Shown: in pieces, positions 25,278 through 27,923 of the stretch
Numbering within the stretch: the stretch's first letter is position 1
Layout: each line of letters starts with the position of its first letter
Assembly (NCBI RefSeq): GCF_002269345.1
Contig: NZ_CP022889.1
Span: 682,001-746,000 of the forward strand
Reading direction: 5' to 3'
Length of the DNA: 64,000 bases
Source: Tsuneonella mangrovi
GTDB taxonomy: Bacteria; Pseudomonadota; Alphaproteobacteria; Sphingomonadales; Sphingomonadaceae
Notes under the pieces: model-generated
What the model was told of the DNA's origin: nothing
Databases searched by the model: none
Seen by the model: the letters and a program-made list of their open reading frames with translations, nothing else
Made by a program: the position numbers and the translations under genes

Positions 25278-25607
25278 TCAACGTGTTGAGCGAAATGCCA
25301 GATCAGTCGCGGCGGACCGCTTCCCCATTGCGCGAGCAATGGCGACCTGACGTTGATCGGCAGCGGAAGCGCGAGCTGCTTTCACGCATTGCCTTATTTC
25401 GGATAGATCTTCCTCATTCCACCAGCTGGTGGTCCGACAGGCACGACGTATAGCATGGGCGATCCGGTGATCGAGTTCGGCTTGACCTTCCTGTGTTGTG
25501 ATGTCGATGTCGTGGTATCCGACGATTACTGTCTTTGGCTCCTGCGCCATAGCAGGTGAAGCCACGGCGACCAAAGCGATGGTCGCGGCTATAATAACTT
25601 TCAGCAT
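25278..25607 (-). CDS. UrcA family exported protein (copy 1)
   Basis: 109-residue protein with a signal peptide (MLKVIIAATIALVAVASPAMA) and an UrcA-type mature part: VGYHDIDITTQEGQAELDHRIAHAI, one cysteine in RRACRTT and another in RQCVKAA, likely forming a disulfide, and an Ala/Arg-rich tail. UrcA proteins are small periplasmic proteins abundant in sphingomonads and other alphaproteobacteria; no activity is known. AGAGGA precedes the ATG. It is read divergently from the winged-helix regulator and paralogous to the gene at 27462-27791, with the same length. Eighty-six bases upstream lies the four-unit 11-bp repeat. Confidence 0.85.
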   Translation of the reverse strand: MLKVIIAATIALVAVASPAMAQEPKTVIVGYHDIDITTQEGQAELDHRIAHAIRRACRTTSWWNEEDLSEIRQCVKAARASAADQRQVAIARAMGKRSAATDLAFRSTR

Positions 25608-25693
25608 GGCAAAGTCCTCTCGATAGTGCGGCAGTCAAAGCGCCGCAGAGGGGAAATGATGCCACCTTGAAAGCGAGCGGGCCTGACCCCGGA

Positions 25694-25737
25694 GCTAATC
25701 ATTCGCGCATCGGAAGCTGATCCTTCGCTGATCAGGC
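25694..25737. promoter_or_regulatory. four-unit 11-bp direct repeat operator (copy 1) between urcA1 and the wHTH regulator
   Basis: Four 11-bp units follow each other without gaps: GCTAATCATTC, GCGCATCGGAA, GCTGATCCTTC, GCTGATCAGGC. The ATC core recurs at 25698, 25709, 25720 and 25731, exactly one helical turn apart. Tandem 11-bp repeats are the classical binding pattern of OmpR/PhoB-type winged-helix proteins, and such a protein is encoded next door. The block lies in the divergent promoter region, so it could control both urcA1 and the regulator itself. A near-identical block stands before urcA2. Confidence 0.7.
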
Positions 25738-25818
25738 TTCCGTGCTTCAAAATCGTATGGTCTTCATTCGATGGATGTTCTGGAGTAATTCAGACCGAGA
25801 ATGTCGGAGTGATCGCCA

Positions 25819-27432
25819 ATGCCTCCCGCCGCTGCATTCGAACAAACGAATGGCTTTGCTCCAGAAGAGCGGATCGATCTCGCGCATCAGGATTCGTTTG
25901 TTCTTGGACCGCTGACGATCCAGCCTGCGCTGCGTCGGATAGCTCATTCGGACGGCGAAGAGGAATTCCTGCAGCCACGTGTCATGCAGGTGCTGGTGGC
26001 GCTCTTTCGCGCAAATGGCCGGATTCTATCGCGGGATGATCTCATCCAGTCGTGCTGGGATGGCAGGATCGTGGGAGAAGCATCGATCGATCGCGTGATT
26101 TCGCAATTGCGCAGGGTTTCGGAGGGAATCGGGCGGCGCGCGTTCTCAATCGAAACTATCAAACGGGTTGGGTATCGCCTTGCCTTTGCGGAGGGCATTT
26201 CGGCCGAGGATGCGTACAGCACAACTGCGGTTGGAAATTCGGACCTGCAGTCAACTTTTGTGGGAAGACTTCCCCGCCGACGGATCCTGGTGTTCGGCGG
26301 CGGCGCAGTTCTGCTCGCAGCTGCGAGCGCAGGCGGATTTTTCATTCGGCGGCTCACTGATCCGGCGATACCGCCCGAAGCTCAAGCGCTCATTGCGCAA
26401 GGTTGGCAAGCGTGGGCTCAGGCGACAGCCGATGGTCCTGACCAGGCGTTGGGATTCTTCCGAAGGGCGACCGAATTGGCACCTAACTATGCCGACGCCT
26501 GGGGACTGCTTGGTTGCGTCTACGCGGATGCCTCGCATCGCGATACGATAGAGCGCGTCGCGACGTTGCGTGATCATTCGCGATCCGCAGCGCAACAGGC
26601 ACTGGAGCTAGACCCACACAATGCCTACGCTCGTGTCGCTTTAGCTTATGACCGACCGATGATGGGCAATTGGCTGCACATGGAACGGGAATTCCAGCGT
26701 TCACACCGGGAGCAGCCCGATCGGCAGATCGTTATTCATGCAATCGGAAGCACGCTTCTTCGGGTGGGACGCTGTGCCGAAGCTGCCTCCGAACTGAAGC
26801 GTATTCGGATCAAGCCCGATGCTCCAATTACCTACCTGTTGAGGGTTGTCGCGGAGTGGGGGGCGAATCGTATCGAGCAGGCAGATCGGCTGATGGAAGA
26901 AGGTGTCGGGCTCTACCCTGCTCACTCTGCTCTCTGGGAAATGAACCTACAGCTCGCCATGTTTGGGGGCAATCCGCGCAAGGCAATCGCGCTGATTGAC
27001 GACGAGCAAGCGCGTCCGGCAGGCATGGATCAAGGCGAGATCGATCGCCTGCTTCTCCTTGGGGAAGCGATCGCGAGCCGTGATCCTGACAAGGTCGAGC
27101 GTGCGGCGAAGAACGAAAAGGCAAGGGCGCATCGAAGTGAGATCGATGCTCAGAATGCCATTCTTGCCGCTGCAGCGCTCGGGCGAACGAACGACGCCTT
27201 CGTTATCCTAGATGCGTTCTATTTTTCGCGTGGTTTCTTAGTGCCCGACAGCCCGCCGCAGAGCGGTGACGCAAGCGAGGCGAGGCTGGACGAGCGCAGC
27301 ACCGCATTTCTCTTCTTGCCAGTAATGCGACCGATTTGGGCCGATCCGAGGTTTGGTAGTATCACTTCGGCTCTCGGTTTGGAGCGCTACTGGCAAGAAG
27401 CTGGAGTTCAGCCGGATTTTCGTCGGGCCTAG
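25819..27432 (+). CDS. OmpR/CadC-type winged-helix transcriptional regulator with TM helix and TPR-like domain
   Basis: 537-residue protein. Residues about 25-125 form an OmpR/PhoB-type DNA-binding domain (FVLGPLTIQPALRRI, LQPRVMQVLVALFRANGRILSRDDLI, IDRVISQLRR, IKRVGYRL). RRRILVFGGGAVLLAAASAGG, about residues 153-173, is a single transmembrane helix, so the DNA-binding domain is cytoplasmic and the rest periplasmic. The C-terminal 360 residues contain TPR-like helical repeats (ALGFFRRATELAPNYADAWGLLGCVY, AAQQALELDPHNAYARVALAYD). The layout is that of CadC/ToxR-like one-component membrane sensors. It sits between two urcA paralogs, and base composition looks lower in GC than neighbouring housekeeping genes. 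Confidence 0.88.
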   Translation: MPPAAAFEQTNGFAPEERIDLAHQDSFVLGPLTIQPALRRIAHSDGEEEFLQPRVMQVLVALFRANGRILSRDDLIQSCWDGRIVGEASIDRVISQLRRVSEGIGRRAFSIETIKRVGYRLAFAEGISAEDAYSTTAVGNSDLQSTFVGRLPRRRILVFGGGAVLLAAASAGGFFIRRLTDPAIPPEAQALIAQGWQAWAQATADGPDQALGFFRRATELAPNYADAWGLLGCVYADASHRDTIERVATLRDHSRSAAQQALELDPHNAYARVALAYDRPMMGNWLHMEREFQRSHREQPDRQIVIHAIGSTLLRVGRCAEAASELKRIRIKPDAPITYLLRVVAEWGANRIEQADRLMEEGVGLYPAHSALWEMNLQLAMFGGNPRKAIALIDDEQARPAGMDQGEIDRLLLLGEAIASRDPDKVERAAKNEKARAHRSEIDAQNAILAAAALGRTNDAFVILDAFYFSRGFLVPDSPPQSGDASEARLDERSTAFLFLPVMRPIWADPRFGSITSALGLERYWQEAGVQPDFRRA

Positions 27433-27461
27433 TCAGTCGGCGTCCTTCGCAGATGCTCAAA

Positions 27462-27791
27462 TTATGGCTTTGAACGCAACGCGACAATCGTAACCGTAGG
27501 GCGTCGTTCCATCCTGCGTGCGATCGCAGCCTGACGCTGCGCGCGCGCGTCAGCATAAGCGGCTTTCATGCAGTGATCGATGTCAAAGTACTCTTTCGCA
27601 TTCATCCAGACGTCTGCACCGCAGACATTTCGAACGGCTTCGTCGATCCGATTGTCGAACGCAGCCTGTCCTTGCGGGGTTGAAATATCGAGATCTTCGT
27701 ATCGCACTGGGACCTTTACCGGCTTTTGCGCCATGACTGGCGATGCGACAGCGACCAACGCTAATCCCAAGAAGGCAGTAGTTCGTAGCAT
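27462..27791 (-). CDS. UrcA family exported protein (copy 2)
   Basis: 109-residue paralog of the gene at 25278-25607: a signal peptide (MLRTTAFLGLALVAVASPVMA), then VRYEDLDISTPQGQAAFDNRIDEAV, the conserved cysteines in RNVCGAD and DHCMKAA, and a basic tail. The ATG at 27791 (with CGAGAGGA 8-10 nt upstream) is preferred; the open frame runs a further 20 codons upstream without signal character. Non-coding DNA upstream is also alike between the two copies for about 130 bp, pointing to duplication of a gene-plus-promoter unit. It converges with the regulator gene, 29 bp apart. Function is unknown. Confidence 0.83.
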   Translation of the reverse strand: MLRTTAFLGLALVAVASPVMAQKPVKVPVRYEDLDISTPQGQAAFDNRIDEAVRNVCGADVWMNAKEYFDIDHCMKAAYADARAQRQAAIARRMERRPTVTIVALRSKP

Positions 27792-27879
27792 GGCAAGATT
27801 CCTCTCGATGCCGCAGCCAACAAAGGTGCCGCGGAAAGGAAAACTTGCCACTTTAAACGCGGGCGCACCTTACCATGAA

Positions 27880-27923
27880 GCTAATCGTTCGCGTATCGGA
27901 GGCTGATCCTTCGCTGATCAAGG
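27880..27923. promoter_or_regulatory. four-unit 11-bp direct repeat operator (copy 2) upstream of urcA2
   Basis: Units GCTAATCGTTC, GCGTATCGGAG, GCTGATCCTTC and GCTGATCAAGG run head to tail; ATC cores are at 27884, 27895, 27906 and 27917, again 11 bp apart. The block ends 88 bp before the urcA2 start, compared with 86 bp for copy 1 before urcA1. Only urcA2 is nearby, which argues that the repeat serves urcA expression rather than solely the regulator. Confidence 0.7.

Follow-up and report, generated by a model that had tools for sequence, protein, structure and literature searches.

What switches on urcA in sphingomonads, and through which DNA element? The question is raised by a locus of Tsuneonella mangrovi contained in a 64,000-nucleotide stretch of contig NZ_CP022889.1 (positions 682,001 to 746,000; this whole stretch is called the window here, and coordinates are positions within it), in which the gene for a 537-residue protein with the domains of a transcription regulator lies between two urcA genes. 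The gene order is urcA1, an intergenic four-unit repeat, the regulator gene, urcA2, and a second four-unit repeat upstream of urcA2. We consider it probable, on comparative sequence evidence, that this regulator, a membrane-anchored protein of the CadC/ToxR kind, binds CYGAT-N6 units and activates the adjacent urcA1 and urcA2. The analysis proposes a regulator, an operator, and a promoter layout for urcA in sphingomonads, and with them a starting point for learning when these bacteria make UrcA.

The first putative operator (25695–25732, + strand), between urcA1 and the regulator gene, consists of CTAAT, CGCAT, CTGAT, and CTGAT at an 11-bp period, and the second (27881–27918, + strand), upstream of urcA2, of CTAAT, CGTAT, CTGAT, and CTGAT at the same period. 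An earlier note on this DNA had described four 11-mers with an ATC core every 11 bp; the spacing proved exact at both sites, and the unit is better written as CYGAT-N6, CTGAT on the + strand being ATCAG in the direction of urcA. When both strands of the 64 kb were searched for four evenly spaced ATC, with every period from 6 to 20 allowed, the sole period to emerge was 11, at these two places alone; the window repeats are more than chance. A four-unit pattern fitted to both sites has no perfect match in the T. mangrovi genome other than those at these two urcA genes (reversed control 0), and the third urcA of the genome has no site at 13/15 or better. The pattern GATNNGCNNNNGATCAGC with two mismatches was discarded as too loose for genome-wide use, as it gave 332 forward and 331 reverse matches, with 44 and 66 in the reversed control. 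Both repeats sit in a 98-nt upstream region that is duplicated at 79% identity, the 42-nt repeat part being identical at 39 of 42 positions. The two window sites are not mutually independent, because they belong to this duplicated region, and other genomes were therefore examined, where intergenic regions provide stronger evidence.

Relatives of the regulator (26–46% identical) carry CYGAT every 11 bp upstream of an opposite-strand neighbor that mostly encodes an exported protein. Such relatives were found in at least 21 of 199 sampled family genomes (E ≤ 1e-30) and, with a profile, in at least 41 of 397 genomes (E ≤ 1e-60); the T. mangrovi genome is counted in both figures, which are lower bounds, with few candidates scored per genome. 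A protein scan of genome contigs with the regulator as query found no relative. By eye, CTGAT or CCGAT every 11 bp was seen in five of seven loci inspected. For a first set of 34 regulator loci, window included, a scan for three CYGAT matched at 14/15 or better found 15 period-11 sites, spread over 11 loci, whereas seven other periods together gave a single site (at period 12; none at 8, 9, 10, 13, 14, or 15). The core had been picked partly from these loci, and 20 further regulator loci, with regulators 35–66% identical to the nearest first-set regulator, were therefore scanned with the same core. This held-out set contained 27 sites in 14 loci at period 11 at a threshold of 13, against 0–6 sites at each of nine other periods, and nine sites in six loci at a threshold of 14, against none at the nine others. 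With a leave-one-out matrix, 41 of 54 loci exceeded the highest reversed-sequence control (7.2 bits), operator 1 scoring 11.1 bits and operator 2 scoring 12.9 bits; with the cores only, 32 loci exceeded 15 bits at period 11, seven at period 9, and 0–4 at five other periods. Locus L050 was retained in the site scans and excluded from protein counts and tree, and L093 and L123, which were in the wrong register, were left out of the position weight matrix and the hexamer counts. The earlier note had suggested aligning the upstream 11-mers of genomes with the regulator beside urcA and had named a failure of the repeats to recur at other regulator loci as the result that would speak against it; period-11 CYGAT sites do accompany the regulator family, 14 of the 20 held-out loci among them.

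The position of the repeats relative to genes and promoters is also regular. A signal-peptide gene, called by a crude rule, lies on the strand opposite CYGAT in 20 of 21 site clusters at a threshold of 14 and in 35 of 42 at 13, compared with 6/21 and 15/42 for the same strand, several of these representing the regulator's own reading frames. An additional unit, AKGAT, distinguishes the side of the repeats that faces the gene. Of 37 sites examined, 26, some of them close relatives of one another, have this first unit in clear form, and in these a −10-like hexamer lies 22 bp downstream, with A at its second position (A2) in 22/26 and T at its sixth (T6) in 18/26; after Bonferroni correction over 280 tests, A2 stood at 7.5e-10 and T6 at 2e-5, and the runner-up, a column with C directly behind the repeats, reached 0.012. 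In the sigma-70 −10 box, these two letters are the best conserved. Because the repeats are upstream of, and at a fixed distance from, this hexamer, they would abut the −35 region as for an activator, and the promoter geometry suggests activation. The window counterparts are CATCAT (A2, T6) at 25656–25661 (− strand) for urcA1, 33 bp from the proximal repeat core, and CAAGTT at 27842–27847 (− strand) for urcA2, at the same spacing.

We scanned 84,980 species genomes for AKGATG-N5-CYGAT-N6-CYGAT-N6-CYGAT without regard to neighboring genes. The 42 stretches found comprised 14 with regulator and urcA, five with the regulator only, two with urcA only, and 21 with neither, giving the regulator within 3 kb in 19/42 and urcA at the site in 16/42; together with the period-11 sites, these figures support what had been claimed from the window alone, that the regulator controls both urcA genes through the repeats. 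In the best 30 urcA loci of a longer list, the 29 lacking the regulator include none with a site at 13/15 or better, and the one with the regulator has a site. A perfect four-unit site occurs at an urcA in genome G053 (locus L123) with no regulator within 1.5 kb and one listed regulator 240 kb away on the same contig, and we count this urcA, read from the sequence as a case in trans, in favor of regulation by the regulator. The urcA of L203 (Sphingomonas sp. PR090111-T3T-6A) likewise has a perfect four-unit site and no regulator in the fetched flank; L123 and L203 are probably the same genome, with the regulator elsewhere. At L112/L136 (G188:C1:2943965), overlapping CYGAT triplets lie upstream of a Ser/Gln/Asn-rich signal-peptide protein with no regulator within 1.5 kb, a possible further target in trans.

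The targets extend beyond urcA. The regulator adjoins urcA in the window and in L055–L058, L060, L093, L179, L182, and L188; elsewhere its neighbors are PD40 proteins (L054, L076), a YadA-head protein (L064), a Slam-like protein (L074), a beta-barrel protein (L178), and an HAF-repeat protein (L180). Targets with PEP-CTERM or PEPxxWA-CTERM signals were found in L062, L065, L075, L180, L183, L184, L186, L187, and L211, and the regulator family is possibly linked to exosortase-sorted surface proteins. The L071 target appears PEP-CTERM-like by eye. Eight targets, each scanned with one library, gave no family match (L028, L029, L046, L177, L185, L189, L190, L212). Loci L028 and L029 have two operators each, in both cases with a small exported protein (NHIYTPTPF or NHIFTPTAF) after one site, and in L029 an additional site precedes a Pro/Thr-rich lipoprotein-like gene. 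The earlier note's assumption that the regulator serves urcA is incomplete in this respect, the family having several exported targets of which urcA is one. Of the 60 regulators placed in a tree, 19 adjoin urcA, and all of these fall within one side of 24 rows, a split that is not firm (Shimodaira-Hasegawa approximate likelihood ratio test (SH-aLRT) 87); an 18-row part that includes the window regulator has an SH-aLRT of 98. The urcA label changes six times on the tree compared with a mean of 16.4 in shuffles, L179 and L188 having been relabelled after the first labelling. The tree omits L050, L061, L070, L077, L191, and L196, and 12 near-full-length members of the 19 scan regulators entered it. 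Applied across genomes, the operator code predicts targets of the regulator family.

Exchange of parts between proteins bears on which domain the operator belongs to. In its winged helix the L121 regulator (1–1437, − strand) shares 69% identity with L055, but its middle part is different; it has tetratricopeptide repeats (TPR) and, by eye, no evident membrane helix, and it adjoins a site and urcA; we read it from its sequence as a sensor swap in which operator and target were kept. Conversely, an anchor resembling a signal for twin-arginine translocation (Tat), together with the TPR part, is fused to TIR in L191 (2001–3602, − strand; Pfam TIR_2) and L077 (703–2673, + strand; by eye), and in L073 (1501–3018, − strand) to another N-terminal region, read as a different helix-turn-helix (HTH), in which there is no Pfam match. 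In these three loci, with the same TPR part and no winged helix found, no site rose above the reversed control. Because L121 keeps the site, while L073, L077, and L191 are without one, the operator appears to track the winged helix rather than the sensor.

The regulator itself (25819–27432, + strand; 537 amino acids) combines an OmpR/CadC-type winged helix, a twin-arginine membrane segment, and a TPR domain. Pfam matches were to Trans_reg_C (PF00486, 4e-12) and TPR_17 (5e-7); PF00486 is present in 21 of 22 aligned regulators, and TPR_19 and TPR_14 each in 17 of 22. No receiver domain was matched by Pfam in the window regulator or among the families listed for the 22 members. A structure model from 12 sequences (the window protein and relatives) had a mean predicted local distance difference test score (pLDDT) of 79.6, and a single-sequence fold was discarded at 38.9. 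The winged helix-turn-helix (25885–26187, + strand; residues ~23–123, by PF00486 and model, with a candidate recognition helix at 87–102) shows OmpR-type strands, three helices, and a wing at 27–123, with pLDDT blocks mostly of 78–88 and one of 55, and, of the DNA-binding domains in the PDB, CadC has the one closest in sequence (5ju7, E 1.2e-20). The linker and membrane segment at 130–178 are modelled with low confidence. The TPR solenoid, a predicted periplasmic sensor (26374–27402, + strand; residues ~186–528), has 16 helices at 186–469 and a few shorter ones thereafter, with pLDDT blocks mostly of 81–98 and low values at 471–490. The best Foldseek matches of the model are TPR superhelices; the matches listed contain generic superhelices only, with no hint of a ligand. 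The OmpR-type DNA-binding domain and long TPR-like part that the earlier note had seen are borne out by these results, and we class the protein as a predicted one-component regulator of the CadC/ToxR type in a variant form, with DNA binding and transcription control predicted from comparison.

The presumed targets in the window are urcA1 (25278–25607, − strand) and urcA2 (27462–27791, − strand), each encoding an exported UrcA family protein of 109 amino acids; the open reading frame of urcA2 (27462–27851, − strand) opens at GTG, and the 109-residue protein starts from an inner ATG at 27791. Both match TIGR04433 above its curated cut-off of 25 bits (urcA1, 61.7 bits, E 5.4e-17; urcA2, 69.9 bits, E 1.5e-19), so that the two flanking paralogs stand as first described, and a signal peptide is recognized by the crude rule and by eye. 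Two cysteines are invariant in 26/26 aligned UrcA proteins linked to the operator or the regulator, both window copies included, which suggests a disulfide and a periplasmic role. In the sample of 29 genomes examined for it, 27 have urcA.

The domains, the operator family, its position and orientation, and the co-occurrence with urcA are read from the DNA itself, and a mechanism can be drawn from them in outline. The cytoplasmic winged helices would line up head to tail along the CYGAT-N6 units, of which three or four would be occupied. With an 11-bp unit of about one helical turn, the regulator copies would all be on the same side of the DNA, immediately upstream of where RNA polymerase binds, and the lined-up subunits would recruit the polymerase to the neighboring promoter, activating urcA1 and urcA2. 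Operator 1, lying between urcA1 and the regulator gene, may also serve autoregulation. The periplasmic TPR domain would be the sensor, and the exported product, or something that the product handles, its likeliest input; an exported target would then enter the compartment that the sensor watches, giving a feedback loop. Binding, activation, periplasmic sensing, and the signal are the steps that we infer.

Several observations weigh against this reading. The window sites are themselves weak (13/15; 11.1 and 12.9 bits), and their −10-like hexamers lie 11 bp, about one helical turn, farther away than the 22 bp of relatives. At L188, urcA stands beside a regulator but the intergenic site is weak (18.0 bits by matrix, under 13/15), and at L060 the site lies 207 nt away from the start of urcA and runs into the start of the regulator. 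Thirteen of the 54 loci have no site above the control and three more are barely above it (7.7–9.5 bits), and the seven loci that pass 15 bits at period 9 with cores only have to be set against the 32 at period 11. The core was chosen after inspection by eye, the held-out set and the species-genome scan being the only tests on unseen loci. In that scan, the 21 matches of 42 with neither regulator nor urcA comprise 14 outside Alphaproteobacteria (seven from one Chitinophagales bin), six alphaproteobacterial, and one unclassified, and about 10 of the 19 regulator-linked matches represent near-copies, found in related Sphingomonas. With three bare units alone, the pattern is met at 33 places spread over 27 of the 199 family genomes (reversed control 3), with a strong regulator match within 1.5 kb in 5 of the 30 loci fetched for it. 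We rejected the bare three-unit motif as sole target caller for being too unspecific. On the contigs of the Chitinophagales bin (L198, L208, L223, L228, L229, L236, L237), an 11-bp tandem repeat, GCGCCACTGAT, mimics the motif and yields false positives.

Other readings of the same repeats were weighed against activation by the neighboring regulator. Proteins of the OmpR/CadC type can activate or repress, so the regulator might bind the repeats and yet repress urcA, a periplasmic signal releasing the gene; the window hexamers, set 11 bp farther off than those of relatives, do not meet the activation geometry exactly. At 26 family sites, however, the repeats lie upstream of the −10-like hexamer at a fixed distance, as for an activator that overlaps or replaces the −35 element, and we regard repression as unlikely. 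It is less likely still that the repeats are bound by some other factor of the OmpR type, such as a UzcR-like response regulator, with the neighboring regulator as a bystander. UzcR controls urcA in Caulobacter crescentus, according to the available text of PMC8963506, and at L123, L203, and L210 an urcA with a site has no regulator in the fetched flank; against this, the UzcR half sites CATTAC-N6-TTAA are absent near both window urcA genes at up to two mismatches, the repeat follows the regulator to targets unrelated to urcA, and the 29 regulator-free urcA loci of the longer list's best 30 carry no repeat. Finally, the two window sites, being one duplicated region, might be a by-product of local duplication or of promoter composition rather than an operator, which the strong preference for period 11 in regulator flanks of other genomes and the fixed distance to the −10-like hexamer render highly improbable.

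The route by which the regulator reaches the membrane is a separate matter that leaves the operator untouched. The single transmembrane helix noted earlier would correspond to a hydrophobic segment at residues ~156–178, between the DNA-binding and sensor domains and of low confidence in the model; what had been missed is its likeness to a Tat anchor. Three arginines and a Gly-rich membrane segment (26275–26352, + strand; residues 153–178) make up a candidate internal Tat signal anchor, from which Tat export would follow. Directly before the helix, Arg-154 is invariant and Arg-155 at least 90% conserved in the 22 aligned regulators, and a twin arginine (RR) precedes the helix in 48 of 53 regulators (54 loci minus L050, whose frame is interrupted), 42 of 47 parsed by script and six of six by eye. 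The helix is Gly-rich and moderately hydrophobic, with a median Kyte-Doolittle (KD) value of 1.76 for the 42 script-parsed RR members, and the T. mangrovi genome has tatC. A tentative and rather less than even case can be made for the full proposal, in which the family would insert through Tat by an internal twin-arginine anchor, the TPR sensor folding, and perhaps loading a ligand or partner, in the cytoplasm first; the same module of Tat anchor and TPR would have been shuffled onto other outputs (TIR in L191 and L077, another putative HTH in L073), the winged-helix form of sphingomonads being dedicated to switching urcA and further exported or PEP-CTERM surface proteins. We give an even chance to the alternative that the twin arginine is a mere positive-inside anchor and the Gly-rich helix a packing surface, with insertion by Sec/YidC and not Tat. 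The regulators are Arg-rich (K/(K+R) 0.127), a basic pair would usually be RR by chance, and because they use few lysines RR alone is weaker evidence for Tat than it appears; moreover, members with and without RR overlap in helix hydrophobicity, those with RR reaching 2.23 and L066, which keeps RR, 2.83. Against Sec/YidC insertion stand the position and identity of RR, nearly invariant within an otherwise variable linker, and the helices of RR-lacking L067, L184, and L192, at KD 2.0–2.8 compared with the median for RR members; the other two of the five regulators without RR, L072 and L196, have no clear helix. Among other winged-helix proteins of congeners, RR directly precedes the most hydrophobic segment in 1 of 16, a comparison that is not a clean control, because that segment is a maximum over most of the protein. 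A Tat-anchored sensor, if the candidate holds, would link transcription to the export route for folded proteins.

Among the matches listed in the open-licence literature, judged by title and start of abstract, no paper on this regulator family was found; as far as this literature was searched, the operator code, the promoter geometry, the link to urcA and other exported proteins, the swapping of sensors and DNA-binding domains, and the Tat-like anchor are new. The regulator resembles CadC and ToxR in its N-terminal OmpR-type winged helix, single predicted membrane helix, and C-terminal sensor, and such transmembrane one-component regulators of transcription are a known kind, surveyed in PMC10269533 (available text). 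CadC prefers AT-rich DNA with few specific contacts and uses a head-to-head pair, TTANNNNT, at Cad1 (−153 to −113), as stated in the accessible part of PMC5430869. In contrast, the sites of the family described here have CYGAT-N6 units, up to four of them, that follow one another head to tail and keep a fixed distance from a −10-like hexamer; the putative sensor is a TPR solenoid, and the membrane segment resembles a Tat signal. Tandem 11-bp direct repeats are the pho box pattern of PhoB/OmpR proteins, with which the regulator shares the winged-helix fold; unlike these, it has no receiver domain that we could find, is predicted to be membrane-bound, and has a different repeat core.

UzcR, an OmpR-type regulator, provides the closest parallel at the level of the target. 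In Caulobacter, no gene is induced more specifically by uranium than urcA, which responds to U, Zn, and Cu by way of UzcRS (PMC8963506, available text). Both systems place urcA under an OmpR-type regulator, but UzcRS is a two-component system with a different DNA site, the letters of which were not found in the available text of PMC12864828 or PMC11481889. Because the UzcR site was not found at the window urcA genes, two lineages seem to put urcA under different sensors. The combination of winged helix and TPR recalls HilA, and HilA/YgeH models match weakly over the winged helix, although with scores far below curated cut-offs (35.7 versus 589 bits). HilA is not known to have a membrane helix. 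For the anchor the nearest likeness is FecR, which has a cytoplasmic N-terminal domain, a twin-arginine membrane segment, and a periplasmic domain and acts on a sigma factor; translocation of a FecR sigma regulator is reportedly Tat-dependent, as Passmore is said to have described in 2020. Where FecR works on a sigma factor, the cytoplasmic part of the window regulator is the predicted DNA-binding domain itself.

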